Source: Bacillota bacterium
GTDB taxonomy: Bacteria; Bacillota; UBA5301
Assembly (NCBI GenBank): GCA_017656135.1
Contig: JACDOJ010000001.1
Coordinates: forward strand, 1 to 64,000
Reading direction: 5' to 3'
Length of the DNA stretch: 64,000 bases
Position 1 is the stretch's first letter, and each line of letters begins with the position of its first letter. The notes below the pieces were generated by a model, which saw only the letters and a list, made by a program, of their open reading frames with translations, ran no database searches and was not told where the DNA came from. Of the stretch, positions 3,269-44,631 are shown in pieces. Both the position numbers and the translations under genes were made by a program.

Positions 3269-4126
3269 TTAATTAACCAGCTTAAGGGCCAAGTCAGGAC
3301 GGCCCATGGGAAAGATGTGAGCCCCTTTTGCCCGTGAGCGCAAATGCAAAAGGAGCTCTCTGGCTAAGGCCAGTCCTGCTTCAGCACCCTCTTTTTCCAC
3401 CCGTCTAACTACCTGGTCAGGGATGTTGATGCCAGGGACCTTTTCCGCCAGGTACTTGGCAGAGCGATAGTTCTTCAAGGGGAGAATACCATAGAGAATC
3501 GGCACCTGCAAGTGGGCGGTGGCCTGCTCAAAACGTTCCACCTGTTCTATAGCGAAAATCGGTTGGGTCTGGACGAAATCGGCCCCGGCCTCGATCTTCC
3601 TCTCCAGCCTCGCCACTTCCCTTGCCAAGTCGGAAGCGGTTGGATTGGCCACGGTACCGATGAGAAAATCCGTCGGGGCAGTGAGCTCCTTGCCACTGAC
3701 AGCTCGGCCCTGGTTTAAGGACCTGGCCATTTTGATCAGGCCGGTTGAATCCACATCAAAGACGCCGGTGGAATTAGGGTGATCTCCCCCTTCCGGCGGA
3801 TCACCGGTAAGAGCCAAAATGTTTTTAACCCCTAATGCCGCGGCCCCTAAAAGCTCGGCCTGGAGCCCCAAGAGGTTTCTATCCCGGCAGGTTAGATGAA
3901 ATATTACCTCCAGGCCCCACTTCTCCTGAATCAGGTGGGCCAAGGCTATGGGGCTCATCCGCAGGCTGGCCATGGGGCTGTCGGCGATGTTCACGGCGAC
4001 GAAATCCTCTTTGAGCTTTCCAATCTCCTCCAAAACCCGACTCGGGTCCGCCCCGGCCGGCGGTTCCATCTCCACAGTCAAAACGAACTTGCCTTCAGTT
4101 AAAAATTCACGCAAACTTTTGGTCAT
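3269..4126 (-). CDS. metF: methylenetetrahydrofolate reductase family protein
   Basis: FVLTVEMEPPAGADPSRVLEEIGKLK...NILALTGDPPEGGDHPNSTGVFDVDS; adjacent to metH. Confidence 0.88.
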   Translation of the reverse strand: MTKSLREFLTEGKFVLTVEMEPPAGADPSRVLEEIGKLKEDFVAVNIADSPMASLRMSPIALAHLIQEKWGLEVIFHLTCRDRNLLGLQAELLGAAALGVKNILALTGDPPEGGDHPNSTGVFDVDSTGLIKMARSLNQGRAVSGKELTAPTDFLIGTVANPTASDLAREVARLERKIEAGADFVQTQPIFAIEQVERFEQATAHLQVPILYGILPLKNYRSAKYLAEKVPGINIPDQVVRRVEKEGAEAGLALARELLLHLRSRAKGAHIFPMGRPDLALKLVN

Positions 4127-4129
4127 ACT

Positions 4130-6589
4130 CTAACTTCTCCTGGTTTTGATAAGTTTCTTGGCTTCCTGGACGGCTCCTACTGCATCTTTGGCATAGCCGG
4201 CGGCTCCAATCTTTTCTGCATAGCTCCGGGTGACCACTGCCCCGCCAACCATCACCGGCACCTGGGGCAGAACCTTCTTTAGCTGCTTAACCGTCTCTTC
4301 CATCGCTGGGAGGGTGGTAGTCATCAAGGCGCTGAGGAGGACAATATCCGCCTTATCCTCCTGGGCCCGCTGCACCACAGTCTGCACCGGAACATCCTTA
4401 CCTAAGTCCACCGTTTGGAAACCATGGTTCTCTAAAATCACTTTGACTATGTTTTTGCCAATGTCGTGAATATCCCCTTCCACAGTGGCTAACAGGGCTT
4501 TGCCAAGGTAAGTCTGGTTACTTGAGGCCAGCTCCTCTCTTAAAATGGAGAAGGCCAGCTGAGCAGCTTCCGCCGAGAGCAGCAGGTTAGGGAGGAAGTA
4601 ACGGCCGTCCTCGTACCGCCGGCCCACCTCTTCCAACGCCGGTGTCAGGATTTCCTGAATGATGGTCAGAGGGTGTAAATCAGCCTTGGCGACGAGCTCC
4701 CTGAGGGCAGGCTCCACCTTGTCCCGGTCTCCGGAGACAATAGCTTGGTAAAGTGTTTCCGAACTTGGGGCCCGATCCCGTCCAGTCTGATCTCGTCCCT
4801 CGGAACCCGCCTCAGTATCCCCGTACTGGAAGAGGTAGAACCGGGCTCCTTGGTCTCGTCCTGTCAAGAGGTTGCCGGCGTGGATGGTTTCGATGATGGA
4901 TAATTCAAAGGGGTTCAGGATCCCGGCATCGAGCCCGCTGGCAATGGCCATAGCCAGGAAAGCCCTGTTGATTAACTCCCGTCGGGGAAGTCCGTGGGAG
5001 ATGTTGCTGACCCCTAAAACAGTCGGCACTCCCAGCTCTTCCTTGACCAGCCTAATGGCCTCCAGCGTCTCCCTGGCACCTTCGGGCTCAGCTCCTACCG
5101 TCAGGGTCAGACAGTCGATAATTATGTCACCGGGATCAAGACTGTGACGAATAGCAGCCTCCACAATGGTCTCAGCGGCTTTGAGACGCCCGAGAGCGGT
5201 CTTGGGTATCCCCTCTTCGGTTAAGGTCAAACCAAGAACTGCCGCTCCGTGTTCTTTCGCGATGGGCAGAACCTGATCTAAGCTCGCCTTTTTGGCTGAA
5301 ACCGAGTTCAACAGGGCCTTCCCCTGATAGACCGCAGCTCCCGCCGCCAAGACCTCAGGGGTGGCGCTGTCCAAAACCAACGGCAGCTGGCTGGCCCGGG
5401 CCACAACCTTCACCGCCTGTTCCATGCTCTGAACCTGGTTAATCCCTGCTACCCCCACATTGACATCTAACAGCTCCGCACCGGCTCTGGTCTGCTCCCT
5501 GGCCTCTGAGGCTACCGCTTTGAAAGACCCGGAAGCTATATCGGCCGCTAGTTTCTTGCGGCCGGTGGGGTTGATCCGCTCCCCGATCAAACGCACCGGC
5601 TGACCGGAGCCGATCACCGTGTGGCTAGTTCTGGAGGCCAGGAAAAGCCGGCCTTTCGGCCTTGGACTCAAGTTTGGTCTTTGTCCACCTAGGAAAGCTA
5701 TGCGGCTAATGTGCTCTGAAGTGGTGCCGCAGCAACCGCCAATGACCGCCGCTCCGGCCCTGACCAACTCCGCCATCCCCTGGGCGAACTCAGCCGCTCC
5801 TTCAGGAAAGACGGTTTGGGTTCCTTCCAGTCTGGGCAAACCGGCGTTAGGCTCAGCCAGCACCGGGACCAAGCCCAGAACAGCCATTTTGGAGATAACG
5901 GGCCGCATTTCACGGGGACCTAAAGAGCAGTTGGCGCCGACCACTTTGGCTCCGGCGGCAGCCAAGCTGATCACTGCCGCCTCAGGAGTGGCCCCGGTGA
6001 GGGTTTTGCCCGATTCCTCAAAAGTGACGCTGGCGAAGACCGGAACTCCCAGTCTCTTAGCGGCCAGAACCGCCTGCCGGGCCTCGGCCAGGTCGCTCAT
6101 GGTCTGGACTAAAATTAGATCCGCCCCGGCCTCCACCAGAGCCTGGGCTTGTTCGGAAAAAGCAGCATAAGCCTCGCTGATACTTAGGGGGCCGTAGGGT
6201 TCCAGCAGTTCCCCTAAGGGGCCAATCACCCCGGCAACCCAGGCTCTTTTGCCAGAGTCGGCTATCGCCTGGCGGGCCAACTCCACACCCCGCCGGTTGA
6301 AGGCCGCCACTTGATCTGCCAAACCAAATTGGCCCAGTTTCTTGCGGTTGGCCCCAAAGGTGTTGGTTTCAATGACCTGGGCCCCGGCCTCTAGGTAGCT
6401 TCGGTGCACCGAAACCACTTTCTCCGGCTGTTCAAGGTTCCAGGTCTCTGGCAAAACGCCGGGGGGCAGCCCCAAAGACTGGAGGCTGGTCCCCATGGCT
6501 CCGTCCAAGACGATGACTCTTTTTCCCAAAAACGACTCCAAGCTCTGGTTAATCACCTTCAACCTCCCCACGCCTGTAGAGGCAATCAC
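4130..6589 (-). CDS. metH: B12-dependent methionine synthase core (homocysteine-, pterin- and cobalamin-binding modules; no reactivation domain)
   Basis: VLDGAMGTSLQSLG..., VIGGCCGTTSEHI, RINPTGRKKL, cobalamin motif GDIHDIGKNIVKVILENHGFQTVDLG; 819 aa. Confidence 0.93.
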   Translation of the reverse strand: MIASTGVGRLKVINQSLESFLGKRVIVLDGAMGTSLQSLGLPPGVLPETWNLEQPEKVVSVHRSYLEAGAQVIETNTFGANRKKLGQFGLADQVAAFNRRGVELARQAIADSGKRAWVAGVIGPLGELLEPYGPLSISEAYAAFSEQAQALVEAGADLILVQTMSDLAEARQAVLAAKRLGVPVFASVTFEESGKTLTGATPEAAVISLAAAGAKVVGANCSLGPREMRPVISKMAVLGLVPVLAEPNAGLPRLEGTQTVFPEGAAEFAQGMAELVRAGAAVIGGCCGTTSEHISRIAFLGGQRPNLSPRPKGRLFLASRTSHTVIGSGQPVRLIGERINPTGRKKLAADIASGSFKAVASEAREQTRAGAELLDVNVGVAGINQVQSMEQAVKVVARASQLPLVLDSATPEVLAAGAAVYQGKALLNSVSAKKASLDQVLPIAKEHGAAVLGLTLTEEGIPKTALGRLKAAETIVEAAIRHSLDPGDIIIDCLTLTVGAEPEGARETLEAIRLVKEELGVPTVLGVSNISHGLPRRELINRAFLAMAIASGLDAGILNPFELSIIETIHAGNLLTGRDQGARFYLFQYGDTEAGSEGRDQTGRDRAPSSETLYQAIVSGDRDKVEPALRELVAKADLHPLTIIQEILTPALEEVGRRYEDGRYFLPNLLLSAEAAQLAFSILREELASSNQTYLGKALLATVEGDIHDIGKNIVKVILENHGFQTVDLGKDVPVQTVVQRAQEDKADIVLLSALMTTTLPAMEETVKQLKKVLPQVPVMVGGAVVTRSYAEKIGAAGYAKDAVGAVQEAKKLIKTRRS

Positions 6590-7259
6590 TCAAATCACAC
6601 CCGGTACAACCTGAAGGCTCATCTTCACCGACCCCGCCGGCCTCACCTGGCCGGATGCCGATTAAGGCCGTAATAGATTTGCGGGGGATAAGCAGACCGG
6701 AGTCGGTCAGCTTCACCCCAATCTCGGCGGCCTTGGTCAAAGGATACAACTGGAACTGATCTTCCAAGGGCCAGTCGCCGTAGCCTGGACTGATCCGCTC
6801 CAGAGCTAAAAGCCCCTCCCTGCGGACCTGCTCTCTAAGTCTCTTATTCACCTCTGCGGCCAGAGACTCCACAGCCGAGGAGCCCAGACTGTCTAAGACC
6901 GCCCCTTTGGTATACTCGCCGGAAGCAAAAAAGGCCACCACTTCTTTTTCCAACTCTTCTCCGATGGTGACCGAAAAAAGATAGGCCTGGCAAAGCGGAC
7001 CCAAGCGGGAAAGGGTGCGGGGGCCGGCCAGACACAAAGACTCTACTCGCAGGCTCTCGCCCTCGCGCTGAACCGGGTAGAGCATACCTATTCCTCGAGG
7101 CTGGGCCAACTCCTCGGCAAGCTGGCTCAGCTCCCTGATGAGCTCTTGAATTCGCGGGGTCAACCCACCCCTGCCTTTATAACCCAGGTAGCGCAGGGCT
7201 TCGTCCTGATCGATCCGGACCTTTAAATCAGTCCACTCGCCGTTTAACGCGGTTAGCAT
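6549..7259 (-). CDS. separately encoded methionine synthase (MetH) activation-domain protein
   Basis: RISPGYGDWPLEDQFQLYPLTKAAEIGVKLTDSGLLIPRKSITALIGI; C-terminal Cys cluster CTGCDLSDCLYRR; overlaps metH. Confidence 0.8.
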   Translation of the reverse strand: MLTALNGEWTDLKVRIDQDEALRYLGYKGRGGLTPRIQELIRELSQLAEELAQPRGIGMLYPVQREGESLRVESLCLAGPRTLSRLGPLCQAYLFSVTIGEELEKEVVAFFASGEYTKGAVLDSLGSSAVESLAAEVNKRLREQVRREGLLALERISPGYGDWPLEDQFQLYPLTKAAEIGVKLTDSGLLIPRKSITALIGIRPGEAGGVGEDEPSGCTGCDLSDCLYRRGEVEGD

Positions 7260-8070
7260 TCCACTCCTCCCGGCCGTATTTCTCCTGTATCAAAACTTGA
7301 GCTAGCTTTTCTTCCTCAGCAGTCAGAACCGAAGGCACCAAGGTGATGCCCAAAGTCTTCTCCCAACCAACGCTCAAAGCGGCCGCCACCTCCGAGAACT
7401 CCACTCTCCGTCCCAGCACGCCCTCGAGATCAGCAACACTCTCGGTAAGGAGCTGGATCAAGCGGGATGCGGCAGCCTGGTCGCCGGACAAGAGGTAAGC
7501 CAGTCTCTCAGGATCAAAGCGAAGCAAGATTGAGCCGTGCTGAAGGACGACCCCCTCCTGGCGGACCTGGGCGCTGCCCACCAGTTTCCTGCCATCAACT
7601 GCGATCTCATACCAGCTGGCGGCGTCGAAACAGGCAGCGGAAGCAGGGCCGGACCCTTTTTTCCCAGGGACCATCTTGGCCGGGACCCCCAGATCCTGCA
7701 GGCCCCGTAGGATGCCTTCGCTTAAAAATCGGTAGGATTCGGTCACTCCTTTAGGTAGGTGCTCGCCCGGGACGACCAGGGAGTAGGTGACCTCGTGCTC
7801 ATGGAGGACTGCCCGACCCCCGGTAGGCCGACGCACGTAATCGACCCCCAGCTCCAGGCAGGCCTCCAGGTTAACAGCTTTCCTCGTATCCTGAAAGTAC
7901 CCTAGGGAAACACAAGGAGGTGACCAACCGTAAAACCTGACAACCGGCTGAGAACGCCCGGCAGCCACCTGCCGGAGCAGGGCCTCATCGATGGCCATGT
8001 TCTGGGCTCCGGTGCGGTATCCAGTATTTAGTAATCTCCACTGGCCGACCACTCTCATCCGCCTTCCCAT
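7228..8070 (-). CDS. lipoate/octanoate protein ligase-fold transferase, LipM-like
   Basis: WRLLNTGYRTGAQNMAIDEALL, RRPTGGRAVLHEHEVTYSLV, AACFDAASWYEIAVDGRKLVGSAQ with a Cys at the LipM-type position. Confidence 0.85.
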   Translation of the reverse strand: MGRRMRVVGQWRLLNTGYRTGAQNMAIDEALLRQVAAGRSQPVVRFYGWSPPCVSLGYFQDTRKAVNLEACLELGVDYVRRPTGGRAVLHEHEVTYSLVVPGEHLPKGVTESYRFLSEGILRGLQDLGVPAKMVPGKKGSGPASAACFDAASWYEIAVDGRKLVGSAQVRQEGVVLQHGSILLRFDPERLAYLLSGDQAAASRLIQLLTESVADLEGVLGRRVEFSEVAAALSVGWEKTLGITLVPSVLTAEEEKLAQVLIQEKYGREEWNANRVKRRVD

Positions 8071-8091: not shown

Positions 8092-9078
8092 CTACTTGCC
8101 CAGCTCTGCAAGGGCTTGACTAATTTCTCCTGCCGAAAGGGGCCGGGGGTAGTTGTAGGGAACCTCGCCCGGCCGTTCGTTGTAGTAGGGACGGTTGCAA
8201 CCCGGACAGCCGCTGGTTTGGAAGGCAGCCCCGTCACTTAGGAGCTCGAACAGTTCTGTTTTGGGATATCCAAAGCTTGTGATCCTACCGGCGCTGTCAA
8301 ACATGAGGTCCACCTCCCTACCCTGGGCCAGCAAATAGCGGAGGGCTTGGAGCCTCCGATAGCTGGCCCGGCTGGGAGGGGAGTACTTAGCCAGCCGGGT
8401 GCCTAAGACAGGGGTCAAAGCGAAAAGGGCGGTGGTGATGCCCTCCTGGGCCAGGGTTTGGATCAACCTGGCCGCTTCTTCCTCGCTCTCCCCCAAACCA
8501 ATGATCAGGTGGGTGGAGATCCGCCCCGGAAAGGCCTTGGCCGTCTCCACCAGAGTGGAGTAGACTGCGGAGAAACTGCCCCCTTTGATGCGCTGAAAAA
8601 GCTCTCCGGTAGCGACATCCAGAGGGATCCCCAACCGATCGATACCGGCTGCCAAAAGGCTCTCAGCTTGCCGGATATTCACCGGACGACAGGAAGCGCT
8701 GATCGGAATGTCTTTGAGGTAGGGAAGGCTCTTCAAGTAGCGAACGGCCGAAATCAGTTTCTGGCTCCAGTCCGGTTCCAGTATGGTCTGGATGCAGATT
8801 CGCTTGATCTCAGCCAGGGGTTTCCCCAGGCCACCAGGGGGAAAAAGCTCCTCTAATTCATAGAGTGGCCAGCTCACCCTGGAGAGCCACTTCTTGTCTC
8901 CTTGGAAAGAGCGGGCCTGGGGGCAAAAGCCGCAGTCGCCCCGGCATTCCCCGTGGGCCAAAAGGTAGATGGTGGTCGGTTTCTCCTGAAGCCGGATCTG
9001 CTTTTTTCCCAGGACTGCAGCTGAACCGGTGCTGACTCTAATCTGCATCCAAACCACCCCAAAAACTGCAGCACTCAA
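8092..9078 (-). CDS. radical SAM protein, candidate half of two-component lipoyl synthase (LipS1/LipS2 type); more likely start at ATG 9048
   Basis: CX3CX2C motif CRGDCGFC; C-terminal CPGCNRPYYNERPGEVPYNYPRPL; lies between gcv genes and a LipM-like gene. Confidence 0.75.
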   Translation of the reverse strand: MSAAVFGVVWMQIRVSTGSAAVLGKKQIRLQEKPTTIYLLAHGECRGDCGFCPQARSFQGDKKWLSRVSWPLYELEELFPPGGLGKPLAEIKRICIQTILEPDWSQKLISAVRYLKSLPYLKDIPISASCRPVNIRQAESLLAAGIDRLGIPLDVATGELFQRIKGGSFSAVYSTLVETAKAFPGRISTHLIIGLGESEEEAARLIQTLAQEGITTALFALTPVLGTRLAKYSPPSRASYRRLQALRYLLAQGREVDLMFDSAGRITSFGYPKTELFELLSDGAAFQTSGCPGCNRPYYNERPGEVPYNYPRPLSAGEISQALAELGK

Positions 9079-9901
9079 AGAAAGTGCTCACTTCAATCCC
9101 CTGCTTTTGAGCACTGGCCAAAGCCGCCGGTGCCGGCTGGACGATGGCATTGATCCCGGCCGTAACTGCGTAGCTGTCCACCTCTTGACGGTAGCCCCCG
9201 CCCGGGCGCATGCAGCCCAAGGTCAGCCAAAGCTGGGGGTAATCCTCACGGATCCTGGCCAGAAAGGCCGCCACTTCCTCAGGGGCCGGTGGGGATTTGC
9301 CGGCCCAACAGGTCCCTCTGGTCGGCCGGAAGATAAGAAAGACTATTTCGCTGAAACCCGCTTCCACCAATAGCCGGACGGCGTGGGTTTCTGAAGCCAA
9401 CCTGGTTTCAGAAAGGCCCAGACAGATGTGGGGAACCACTCGGCCGTATCTCTGCAAAAGCTTGAGGGACGCTAAATACTGATGGACGGAGTAAGGGAGC
9501 CCATAGACCTCGGCCAGGGTGGCCTCATCCCCGACGAAATCACAGGAAAAAACGGTGGCAACCTCAGCCAGGCGCTGGGCAACAGTCTCATCAGCCACAT
9601 AACCGGTGTGCAGGTTTAACCTGTAGCTTTTAGCAAGCTGTCTTAATTCCTTAAGGTGCGAGGCCAAAGGCACTTCTCCGCCTGGATTACAGGCCCCGCT
9701 CACCAAAAGGCTCTGCCACCGGGGCCGTCTTGCGGCGCCGGCAACCACCTCTGAAAGGGGTTTCATCCCTTTGAGGTAGTGACCGCCGCAGTGGGCGCAA
9801 TTCAAGGGGCAGTTCACCCCGGTGACCCGGACCGCTCCGGTCCTAACCGGCAAAACGGCGATGATCCGAGGAGACTGATCTTGTTCTTTCTCACCAAACA
9901 T
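9038..9901 (-). CDS. radical SAM protein, candidate other half of two-component lipoyl synthase (LipS1/LipS2 type)
   Basis: CX3CX2C motif CPLNCAHC; LTLGCMRPGGGYRQEVDSYAVTAGINAIVQPAPAAL; directly downstream of gcvPB. Confidence 0.75.
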   Translation of the reverse strand: MFGEKEQDQSPRIIAVLPVRTGAVRVTGVNCPLNCAHCGGHYLKGMKPLSEVVAGAARRPRWQSLLVSGACNPGGEVPLASHLKELRQLAKSYRLNLHTGYVADETVAQRLAEVATVFSCDFVGDEATLAEVYGLPYSVHQYLASLKLLQRYGRVVPHICLGLSETRLASETHAVRLLVEAGFSEIVFLIFRPTRGTCWAGKSPPAPEEVAAFLARIREDYPQLWLTLGCMRPGGGYRQEVDSYAVTAGINAIVQPAPAALASAQKQGIEVSTFFECCSFWGGLDAD

Positions 9902-9905
9902 CGAG

Positions 9906-11384
9906 CTAAGCCCCTCTACCCTGCCACTTTAGATTGGGATGGCGGGCAGCAGCGGCTTCATCCAGGCGCCGGACAGGCAGATTGCGGGGGGCCTGTTTCA
10001 GTACCTCCGGATTTTCCTGAGCCTCCCGGGCGATCTGGGCCATGATTGTGATGAACTGATCCATGGTTTCCTTGCTTTCAGTCTCGGTAGGCTCGATCAT
10101 CAAGGCCTCTTCGACGATGAGGGGGAAGTAGATAGTGGGGGCGTGAACCCCGAAATCTAGGAGCCGTTTGGCCATATCCAGGGTCTTCACCCCATGGGCC
10201 TTCTGCCGGGAGCCGGAGATGACGAACTCGTGCATGCACCGGCGCCGGTAGGGCAGATCAAAGTAGTCCTGTAATTTGGCCAGGAGATAGTTGGCGTTTA
10301 ACACGGCGTTCTCAGCCACAGCCCGCAGGCCTGATGATCCCATCTGCCGGATGTAGGCGTAGGCCTTGAGGGCCACCAGAAAATTGCCGCAGTAGCCTTT
10401 GACCTTGCCGATGCTTTTGGGATGGTCGTAGTCCAGGTGGTACACTTCGCCGTCATACTGAACCCTAGGTACCGGCAGGTACGGGATGAGATCGGCCTTG
10501 ACTCCCACCGGGCCGGAACCAGGGCCTCCTCCGCCGTGGGGAGCGGCAAAGGTCTTGTGCAGGTTCAAGTGGACCACATCGAAACCCATGTCCCCAGGCC
10601 GGGTGATGCCCAGGATGGCGTTGGCGTTGGCCCCGTCGTAGTAGAGTAGCCCGCCGGCAGCATGGATAATATCGGCAATCTCCAGGATATTCTCCTCAAA
10701 AAGCCCTAAGGTGTTAGGGTTGGTCAGCATCAACCCGGCTGTGCGCTCACTGACCACTGTCTTAAGAGCGGCTACATCCACGTTGCCCCGCTCATCCGAA
10801 GGAACCTCCACCACCTTGAACCCGCACATGGCGGCGCTGGCCGGGTTGGTTCCATGGGCGGAATCAGGGACGATGATCTCCTGTTTTTGGTCTGACTGTC
10901 CCCGGTCCCGGTGGTAAGCCTTGATGAGCATCAGACCGGTCAATTCTCCGTGGGCTCCGGCAGCCGGTTGCAGAGTGAAGGCATCCATGCCCATCAACTC
11001 AGAGAGGTAGTTCTGCAGCTCGTAGATGACCCGCAGGGCACCTTGAACGGTGCCCTCCGGTTGATAAGGATGGAGGCCGGTGAACCCGTCCAAAGCGGCG
11101 ATATCCTCATTGATCTTCGGGTTGTACTTCATGGTACAAGATCCCAGAGGATAAAAGCCGCTGTCCACCCCATGGTTTCGCTCTGAAAGCCGGGTGAAAT
11201 GGCGGACCACATCCACCTCACTAACTTCAGGGAGCTCCGGTTTACGGGTGCGGAGAAGGTCTTCAGGCAAGACTTCGGCTACCTCTACAGCAGGCACATC
11301 CAATGGGGGCAGGGAGAAACCGGTCCGCCCCGGGACGCTTTCTTCAAAAATCAGTTTGACTTCCCTTGGCCCGTCAATCCTCAT
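9906..11384 (-). CDS. gcvPB: glycine dehydrogenase (decarboxylating) subunit 2
   Basis: [20 protein letters not shown]..., [28 protein letters not shown]-lysine region. Confidence 0.97.
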
Positions 11385-12730
11385 AACAATCCCCCCAATA
11401 CCTGGACAAGATAATCCATCTCTTCCTTGGTCCGCTGCTCAGTGACGCAAAAGAGCATCAGATCAGAGAGCTGGGGATAAAATCTTCCTAAAGGTAGCCC
11501 CCCAATGAGCCCATATTCGGCGAGGCGCTGGAAGATTTCTTCCGGATCCCCTTGGACCCTGACGGTGAACTCGTGAAAGAAAGGACCGGGCAGCCCGGGA
11601 GAAATCCCCTCCACCGTGAGCAGCTGCCGGTAGAGATAGTGGGCCTTGGCCAGAGAACTCTCTGCCACCTGCCTGAGCCCCTCAGGGCCCATTACGGAAA
11701 GATACACCGTGGCCGCCAAAGCATTCAGGGCCTGGTTAGAGCAGATATTGGAGGTGGCCTTCTGCCGCCTAATGTGCTGCTCCCTAGCTTGCAAGGTCAG
11801 CACATACCCCTGGTGGCCTTCGCTGTCCACGGTGGCCCCAACTATCCGGCCGGGCATCCGGCGCACGTACTTTTCTTTAGCAGCCAGATAACCCAGGTGG
11901 GGTCCGCCAAAGGCCATGGGGTTTCCCAGGGCCTGGCCTTCGCCGCAGGCGATGTCCGCTCCCAGCTCCCCGGGGGGTTTCAACAGACCAAGAGCAATAG
12001 GATTGGCCACCACAATGAACAAGGCGCCTTGGGCGTGGGCCTTCTGGACCAGTTCTCTGGGGTCCTCAATCTGACCGAAGAAGTTGGGGTACTGGACCAC
12101 TACCGCAGCGGTCTTATCGTCCACTAAATCTCTGAGAGTAGAGATACAAGACCCCTCTTCAGCGAGGTCAGCCAGGACGCATTCGAGGTCTAAGAGGTCC
12201 CAGTAGGTCTCAAGGACCCGGCGGTACTCAGGGTTCAGGCTCGCCGGGACCACCACTTTCTCCCGCCGGGTGATCCCCACAGCCATCAAAGCCGCCTCCA
12301 CTAAAGCGGTAGCACCGTCATAGAGAGAAGCGTTGGTGACATCCAGGCCGGTGAGGTTACAGATCATGGTCTGGTACTCGTAGATGGCCTGGAGGGTCCC
12401 TTGGCTGATCTCAGCCTGGTAGGGGGTATAGGCGGTGTAGAACTCGGAACGGCCCAAAATGTGCCTGACCACACTGGGAATATAGTGATCATAGGTGCCG
12501 GCACCAAGAAAGACCGCTGCTTCCGAGGCGTTCAGGTTTTTTTTAGCCAACGCTTTCAGTTCTTTGAACACCACCGGTTCAGAGCGAGGGGTCGGCAGGT
12601 CCAGCTCTTTTTGTAAGCGGATTTCTTCCGGAATGTCGGAAAAGAGCTCGTCGATGCTGCCGGCCCCGATGGCCTTCAGCATCTCCTGCCTCTCTTGTTC
12701 AGTGTTTGGGATGTAGTGCATCGCTTTCAC
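11381..12730 (-). CDS. gcvPA: glycine dehydrogenase (decarboxylating) subunit 1
   Basis: [19 protein letters not shown]..., [41 protein letters not shown]. Confidence 0.97.
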
Positions 12731-13113
12731 TCCCCATCGATAAAAGCCTCATACTCCTCGGCCGTCATTAACTGGTCGACCTCAGAGGGATCCAGCATTT
12801 CGATGACGGCAATCCAGGCGTCATTGTAGGGATCCTCGTTGATGAGCTCCGGGTTATCCTGCAGGGTTTCGTTAACCTCCACCACCGTTCCGCTGACCGG
12901 AGCATAGATGTCAGAGACGGCTTTCACCGATTCCACTACCGCGAAATCATTGCCTTTCACGACTTCCTGGCCGATGTCGGGCAGATCCACAAAAACCACA
13001 TCCCCTAACTCTTTCTGGGCGTGGTCGGTGATGCCGACGATGGCCCGCTTGCCGCTGACTCTCACCCACTCATGTTCTTTGGTGTACCTCAAATCAGAAG
13101 GGATCATTTTCAA
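12727..13113 (-). CDS. gcvH: glycine cleavage system H protein
   Basis: RYTKEHEWVRVSGKRAIVGITDHAQKELGDVVFVDLPDIG; lipoyl-lysine motif VESVKAVSDIYAP. Confidence 0.98.
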   Translation of the reverse strand: MKMIPSDLRYTKEHEWVRVSGKRAIVGITDHAQKELGDVVFVDLPDIGQEVVKGNDFAVVESVKAVSDIYAPVSGTVVEVNETLQDNPELINEDPYNDAWIAVIEMLDPSEVDQLMTAEEYEAFIDGE

Positions 13114-13124
13114 TACCTCCTTGG

Positions 13125-14231
13125 TTATCTTTTATAGTAGGGTTTCACAAAAGGCAGGGGCACTACCTCAGCTTCCACTGCCTTGTTGCGAATGTTGATC
13201 CAGATGTGGTTGCCGGTTTGACCCTCACCGACAGAAACGTAACCGAGACCAATGTTCTCCTCTAAGGTCGGAGAGAAGGAACCGCTGGTCACAGCGCCAA
13301 TGACCTCTGAGTTCCGGTTTAGGATTTCGTAACCGTGGCGGGGCACACCCCGGCCGATCATCTTGAAACCCACTAGTCTGCGTTTGATGCCTTCTTCGGC
13401 CTGTTTCTGGAGAGCCGCCCGCCCGATGAAATCTCCTTTATCCAGCTTAACGGCGAAATTAAGACCTGCCTCCAGGGGAGTAGTTTCCACAGTCAACTCT
13501 TGGCCGTAGAGGGAGTAGGCCATCTCCAGGCGCAGGGTGTCCCTGGCCCCCAGTCCTACCGGAACCAGGCCAAGATCTGAACCTGCCTCCAAGAGCTTGT
13601 TCCAGACGGTTTCTGCCTCGGAAGCATCCAGGTACAATTCGAAACCCCGCTCTCCGGTATAGCCGGTGGCGGCAATCAAGGTGTCGATGCCGGAAACCCG
13701 GCCCTTTTGGAAGGTAAAGGGAGTGATACCGGCCACATCCACCGGAGTCACCTTGGCCAGGATTTCCTCGCTGTGCGGACCCTGGACCGCAATTAAAGCT
13801 GTATCATCGGTTGCGTTGATCAGCTCCACGCCGGCGGAAGGTAGGTGGCTTTGAAACCAATCCCAGTCTTTGTCAATGTTGGCGGCGTTCACCACCACCA
13901 GGAAGATCTCCTTATCCAGCCGGTAGAGGATGAGGTCATCCAGGACTCCCCCGTCCTCCCGGCACAATAGGTTGTATTGGGCTTTCCCCGGCTCCAATTT
14001 GGCCAGCTTGTTGGTAAGCAGCCGATTTAGATAGTCGTAGGCCCCTGGACCCTGGACATAAAACTCGCCCATGTGCGAGAGATCAAAGATTCCGGCCGCC
14101 TGCCGGACCGCTCGGTGCTCCTCTAAGATTCCTGAATACTGAACCGGCATCTCCCAACCGCCAAAGGGGATCATCTTGGCCCCTGCAGCTTGATGCAGGT
14201 GAAACAAAGGGGTACGTTTTAACTCAGACAC
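13125..14231 (-). CDS. gcvT: glycine cleavage system aminomethyltransferase T
   Basis: KRTPLFHLHQAAGAKMIPFGGWEMPVQYSGILEEHRAVRQAAGIFDLSHMGEF. Confidence 0.97.
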   Translation of the reverse strand: MSELKRTPLFHLHQAAGAKMIPFGGWEMPVQYSGILEEHRAVRQAAGIFDLSHMGEFYVQGPGAYDYLNRLLTNKLAKLEPGKAQYNLLCREDGGVLDDLILYRLDKEIFLVVVNAANIDKDWDWFQSHLPSAGVELINATDDTALIAVQGPHSEEILAKVTPVDVAGITPFTFQKGRVSGIDTLIAATGYTGERGFELYLDASEAETVWNKLLEAGSDLGLVPVGLGARDTLRLEMAYSLYGQELTVETTPLEAGLNFAVKLDKGDFIGRAALQKQAEEGIKRRLVGFKMIGRGVPRHGYEILNRNSEVIGAVTSGSFSPTLEENIGLGYVSVGEGQTGNHIWINIRNKAVEAEVVPLPFVKPYYKR

Positions 14232-14298: not shown

Positions 14299-14465
14299 CC
14301 TGGTGCCTGAGAGATACCCTGCCAATGGCAGGTTGCTCCTTCGGCGGGCTATTGCCCTCTCCAGAGTGCCGTCCTCTAGTAAGTCTTTTTGCCTGAGAGT
14401 TTCGTGATACTCGCCTAATACCACTTGCTCCTTCGGCGCCTCCGTAGAGGTCTCTCCTTACTAGA
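14281..14465 (-). ncRNA. tandem glycine riboswitch (two aptamers)
   Basis: On - strand two copies of the glycine-aptamer core: GAGAGACC...GGCGCCGAAGGAGCAA...AAACTCTCAGGCAAAAAGACTT and GGAGAGGGC...CCGCCGAAGGAGCAACC...TATCTCTCAGGCACCAGGACAGAGG; directly upstream of gcvT. Confidence 0.95.
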
Positions 14466-14626
14466 ATCACCCGGCGTATCTTATTTCATTATCCTCTGCA
14501 CTTATTTTATGTAGGCAGTGGTAATTCCTACTACCGGTGGGAAAACATTCGATGATAAGCAATTATTGCCTTCTATTTATATAATGAACCAAGATGGCTG
14601 TACTAGGTTTGTAAGGGGGTAATCTT

Positions 14627-44534: not shown

Positions 44535-44631
44535 TGGCGGGAGTATGTGGGAATCGAACCCACCACGGACAGGGCCACTGCCCGTCACTGGATTTGAAGT
44601 CCAGGAGGCCCACCAGGACCCATCCACTCCC
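44535..44631 (-). tRNA. selC: tRNA-Sec (anticodon UCA)
   Basis: GGGAGTGGATGGGTCCTGGTGGGCCTCCTGGACTTCAAATCCAGTGACGGGCAGTGGCCCTGTCCGTGGTGGGTTCGATTCCCACATACTCCCGCCA; long variable arm, TCA anticodon, encoded CCA. Confidence 0.96.

Follow-up and report, generated by a model that had tools for sequence, protein, structure and literature searches.

A lipoyl synthase composed of two proteins has already been published, bacteria included (PMC9585515, PMC10332631). In Thermococcus kodakarensis these are separate radical-SAM proteins, LipS1 (TK2109) and LipS2 (TK2248), each with a CX3CX2C motif, for which the order of sulfur insertion has been established (PMC9585515). Mutagenesis assigned the auxiliary cluster of TK2109 to C230, C276 and C277, with H159 as a suggested ligand, and that of TK2248 to C85, C276 and C279 with H178 (PMC9585515). 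The bacterial genes for LipS1 and LipS2 cluster with the gene for the H protein and with one for a member of the ligase family (PMC9585515). In the sLpl(AB)-LipS1/S2(-LipT) pathway of Hyphomicrobium and Thioalkalivibrio, the two enzymes act together with sLpl(AB) on LbpA, a carrier of the GcvH fold, and in Sporomusa they are linked with canonical lipoate-synthesis genes (PMC10332631). The LipM/LipA route of Bacillus subtilis begins with LipM, which transfers octanoyl onto GcvH, with acyl carrier protein as the donor (PMC6067878). As the biochemistry of LipS1/LipS2 and the grouping of their genes with that of the H protein have both been described before, the type of enzyme considered here is already known. 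A full-text literature search found this H-protein clustering reported and no paper describing the order gcvTHPAPB-lipS1-lipS2-lipM.

The locus studied here lies in a stretch of 64,000 nucleotides (the window). It resembles the T. kodakarensis system in having a pair of distinct radical-SAM proteins that both carry CX3CX2C, in the counterparts of the auxiliary Cys/His ligands, and in a genome without classical LipA according to profile searches. Unlike the T. kodakarensis pair, this predicted one is bacterial and belongs to a single operon-like gcv run that also includes a LipM-like transferase and a glycine riboswitch. As in Hyphomicrobium and Thioalkalivibrio, the expected target is a GcvH-fold carrier, but the set in the window comprises GcvH and a single-domain LipM-like partner instead of LbpA and sLpl(AB). 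The predicted steps are those of B. subtilis, a GcvH-specific octanoyltransferase followed by radical-SAM sulfur insertion, except that LipS2 and LipS1 together would take the place of LipA.

The gcv-lip-met gene run

On the minus strand, the genes follow one another without interruption in the order glycine riboswitch-gcvT-gcvH-gcvPA-gcvPB-lipS1-lipS2-lipM, and the genes for the MetH activation protein, metH and metF come next (Table 1). The gaps and overlaps throughout the run measure a few to a few dozen bases.

Table 1. Features of the minus-strand run in the window.
Feature	Position	Strand	Evidence
Glycine riboswitch aptamer, upstream of gcvT	14371..14469	-	Rfam RF00504, 69.8 bits (gathering 32)
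gcvT, aminomethyltransferase	13125..14231	-	ORF; same place in relatives' gcv-lipS order
gcvH, lipoyl carrier, presumed substrate	12727..13113	-	TIGR00527, 176 bits (cut-off 115.85)
gcvPA, glycine dehydrogenase subunit 1	11381..12730	-	ORF; 4-nt overlap with gcvH; conserved order
gcvPB, glycine dehydrogenase subunit 2	9906..11384	-	ORF; 4-nt overlap with gcvPA; conserved order
LipS1, radical-SAM lipoyl synthase subunit (predicted second sulfur, C6)	9038..9901	-	NF053742; conserved ligands
LipS2, radical-SAM lipoyl synthase subunit (predicted first sulfur, C8)	8092..9078	-	NF053743; conserved ligands
LipM-like octanoyltransferase, single LplA-B_cat domain	7228..8070	-	PF21948, 153 bits
MetH activation-domain protein	6549..7259	-	PF02965, 26.5 bits (cut-off 25)
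metH, methionine synthase without activation domain	4130..6589	-	TIGR02082, 537 bits, below cut-off 1010.85
metF-like methylenetetrahydrofolate reductase	3269..4126	-	MTHFR half of NF006396, 323.8 bits

The preliminary description reported two overlapping radical-SAM reading frames placed between gcvPB and a LipM-like gene. Both frames were found at these positions and with these neighbours: lipS1 starts 4 nt past gcvPB, and lipM follows 21 nt past lipS2. The gcvPB-proximal frame encodes 287 aa and contains the segments CPLNCAHC and LTLGCMRPGG. The second one, which contains CRGDCGFC and SGCPGCNRPYYNE, encodes 328 aa if translated from TTG 9078, with a 41-nt overlap between the two frames, or 318 aa if translated from ATG 9048, with an overlap of 11 nt (ATGCAGATTAG). 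The lysine in the ESVKA motif of the gcvH product is conserved in all 36 of 36 homologues.

The gene for the MetH activation-domain protein overlaps lipM by 32 nt; its product belongs to the same run and has no part in lipoylation. The profile match of metH stops at position 859 of 1182, and the score of the metF-like gene is below the 453-bit cut-off of the bifunctional model. The same layout of metF, metH and a separate activation-domain gene after lipM (window 3269-7259(-)) was seen in two relatives (L062, L063). A scan for promoters and terminators gave no enrichment over shuffled sequence. Apart from this run, the window carries a gene for selenocysteine tRNA at 44539-44631(-) (Rfam RF01852, 77.8 bits).

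Identity of the radical-SAM pair

We compared both frames with the curated NCBIfam equivalog models of LipS1 (NF053742, cut-off 230 bits) and LipS2 (NF053743, cut-off 270 bits). The gcvPB-proximal frame matched the LipS1 model over profile positions 5-268 with 239.1 bits (E=6.5e-71), only 9 bits above the cut-off, and the frame at 8092-9078 matched the LipS2 model over positions 1-292 with 324.5 bits (E=6.4e-97). This settles which protein is which, left undecided in the preliminary description, where the comparison with LipS profiles had been proposed. Given these E values and scores above curated cut-offs, together with a gene order that recurs in dozens of genomes, the pair is not a chance match.

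The presumed iron-sulfur ligands are strongly conserved. In LipS1, the radical-SAM cluster (C31/C35/C38) and the auxiliary cluster (C230/C277/C278 with H158) are invariant in 59/59 homologues. In LipS2, the auxiliary cluster (C95/C291/C294 with H190) is invariant in 57/57 homologues, and the radical-SAM cluster (C45/C49/C52) is kept in 56 of the 57, the one remaining row being gapped there. All cluster ligands of the two T. kodakarensis proteins have counterparts in the window pair, with positions paired through motif and spacing and not through direct alignment.

A search with phmmer against the PDB sequences recovered no relative of LipS with a solved structure. The AlphaFold models have a mean pLDDT of 92.9 for LipS1, with biotin synthase and HydE as the nearest folds, and 92.4 for LipS2, with HydE, biotin synthase and LIAS. 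Structural likeness to biotin synthase, HydE and lipoyl synthase is as expected for predicted structures from this part of the radical-SAM superfamily. The biotin-synthase-like folds might also suggest that the pair are biotin-synthase-like or other radical-SAM sulfur inserters working on a substrate other than octanoyl-GcvH, and the bioB model TIGR00433 does match the LipS2 frame. However, this match reaches 44.5 bits against a cut-off of 225, whereas the LipS2 model gives 324.5; BioB was thus rejected for this frame. Moreover, the ligands match the LipS pattern, the surrounding genes make up an operon-like gcv-lipM run, and this linkage persists across many genera, so we consider this explanation hardly credible.

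The split lipoyl synthase of LipS1/LipS2 type that the preliminary description had put forward is therefore well founded, on the curated scores, the counterparts of published ligands, the gcv/LipM context and a genome without lipA. We take the window pair to be a genuine LipS1/LipS2 lipoyl synthase that serves specifically the H protein encoded in its own operon, with a probability of roughly 93 %. Judging from the sequences, its catalytic role would be the insertion of sulfur into octanoyl-GcvH. In the proposed mechanism, LipM would transfer the octanoyl group to the GcvH lysine, with acyl carrier protein as the likely donor. Drawing on SAM and its own auxiliary [4Fe-4S] cluster, LipS2 would then insert sulfur at C8, and LipS1 would do likewise at C6, completing the lipoyl arm for GcvP and GcvT. 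The order, C8 by LipS2 before C6 by LipS1, is transferred from the T. kodakarensis enzymes and is predicted by analogy. The aptamer suggests that the gene set may be controlled by glycine via the riboswitch.

The octanoyl transferase and the lipoyl carriers

The LipM-like protein (280 aa) consists of the LplA-B_cat domain alone, and profile searches found no LplB accessory domain in it or beside it. C147 and K162 are each conserved in 32 of 32 homologues. These features fit LipM, a candidate assignment based on the domain layout and the conserved cysteine rather than on a curated LipM model. C147 would be the catalytic cysteine, which we take to be equivalent to the active-site cysteine of B. 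subtilis LipM.

The protein could instead be an ATP-dependent LplA, so that the substrate of LipS2 would come from free octanoate and not from octanoyl-ACP. The nearest solved structures are indeed those of lipoate-protein ligase A from Thermoplasma acidophilum, and sLpl(AB) is the usual bacterial partner of LipS1/S2 (PMC10332631). On the other hand, the LplB accessory domain is missing, the invariant C147 is absent from the aligned segment of T. acidophilum LplA, and LipM has been reported alongside LipS1/S2 in some bacteria (PMC10332631). We regard an LplA as unlikely here; it would alter the partner and not the identification of LipS1 and LipS2.

In the assembly (1.9 Mb, 99.4 % complete), we searched for lipA genome-wide, as had been advised, and found none: the best TIGR00510 score was 29.7 bits against a cut-off of 310, and the same search detected the gene in the controls E. 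coli and B. subtilis. The absence of LipA noted earlier for the window thus extends to the whole genome. Three weak matches to the lipA profile were discarded, as their scores are far under the cut-off and their frames, at 444-457 aa, exceed LipA in length. A search of the genome revealed no lipoyl E2 protein; the single strong biotinyl/lipoyl match falls in a 618-aa frame, which is probably a biotin enzyme. Three GcvH-type proteins were found, GcvH and two paralogues, and with neither lipA nor a lipoyl E2 they are the only visible lipoyl carriers. Since no lipoyl E2 subunit was seen, the window pair would naturally act on GcvH, and a relay of the LipL type should be unnecessary.

Distribution and the second LipS1/LipS2 pair

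In a sample of 300 genomes of the phylum, LipS1 of the gcv type occurred in 67 and LipS1 of a second type in 19, the gcv-type class being assigned from examined loci or, for genomes without fetched loci, from the score. The lipA gene was present in 6/67 genomes with gcv-type LipS1 versus 98/233 of the others (Fisher p=9e-8, uncorrected for relatedness), and the two genes tend to be mutually exclusive. At the class level, a LipS1 match was found in 7/7 genomes and lipA in one. Carriers of the gcv type include Carboxydothermus islandicus, Desulfosporosinus, Propionispira, Pelosinus, Peptoclostridium, Frackibacter and Desulfofundulus.

The order gcvPB-lipS1-lipS2-lipM was kept in 28/41 sampled and 30/47 named loci, with Carboxydothermus, Desulfosporosinus, Propionispira, Pelosinus, Frackibacter and Halothermothrix among the genera that show it; some records are shared, so the two counts are not independent. 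The departing loci include contig ends and rearranged orders; in Chloroflexota, for example, the gcv genes come after lipS1-lipS2. In two genomes of the phylum we found natural LipS1-LipS2 fusions (L082 8796-10946(+) and L081 8016-9944(-)), each a single open frame with both full domains and the LipS1 domain first, which supports joint action of the two proteins. These data support the view that the two-protein synthase is mainstream among anaerobic Bacillota as a way of making lipoyl-GcvH, rather than a curiosity of archaea and sulfur oxidisers. Searches for lipA only would score such genomes as unable to make lipoate, which bears on models of glycine metabolism and of the reductive glycine pathway in anaerobes.

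The window pair is not the sole candidate lipoyl synthase of this genome, as a second pair is encoded on contig C3 (L013 8715-13296). Its LipS1 homologue scores 220 bits (cut-off 230) and its LipS2 homologue 228 bits (cut-off 270), so both fall short of the curated models. Encoded next to them are a ligase of the sLpl(AB) type, a GcvH-like protein devoid of cysteine and homologues of TusB, TusC and TusD. This pair is closer than the window pair to the sLpl(AB) layout of Hyphomicrobium and Thioalkalivibrio. In other genomes, second-type loci likewise encode GcvH-like proteins and sLpl(AB), frequently together with an FAD oxidoreductase-like protein that may be LipT.

The window pair could thus be LipS1/LipS2 and still be redundant, with GcvH lipoylated by the C3 pair or by salvage through the ligases on C3 and C6, since the genome has sLpl(AB) with LipS2/LipS1 on the former contig and an LplA-like gene on the latter. 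Yet each of the three ligase/transferase genes lies near its own GcvH paralogue, LipS1 trees place the C3 and window copies in different groups, and the window pair retains its catalytic residues. Redundancy therefore appears quite improbable, and a window pair dedicated to GcvH remains our preferred reading.

A broader reading joins these observations, and for it we see the chances as evenly balanced. One bacterium would have two carrier-dedicated pairs, the gcv-type pair with LipM for GcvH and the separately branching pair with sLpl(AB) for the GcvH-like protein whose gene neighbours those for TusBCD; a lipoyl carrier might in this way be connected to a Tus sulfur relay. In much of the phylum, the gcv-type LipS1/LipS2 would take over from LipA, in two genomes as one fused protein.

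We made several further observations around these paralogues. The C3 set (L013 8715-13960) adjoins a divergent gene for an ArsR-TusA fusion, and its LipS2 copy has an insert with an extra cysteine (SGCPGKTCRYACNRP). In four genomes (G043:C7, G084:C40, G111:C84 and G129:C335), lipA lies about 10 kb or less from second-type LipS1/LipS2, which means that the two kinds of lipoyl synthase gene share a locus there. The third GcvH paralogue is encoded beside the LplA-like gene (L014 4768-5700, G000:C6:14366-14728), and the two genes adjoin others for FAD-linked oxidase-like and Fe-S (CCG-type) proteins.
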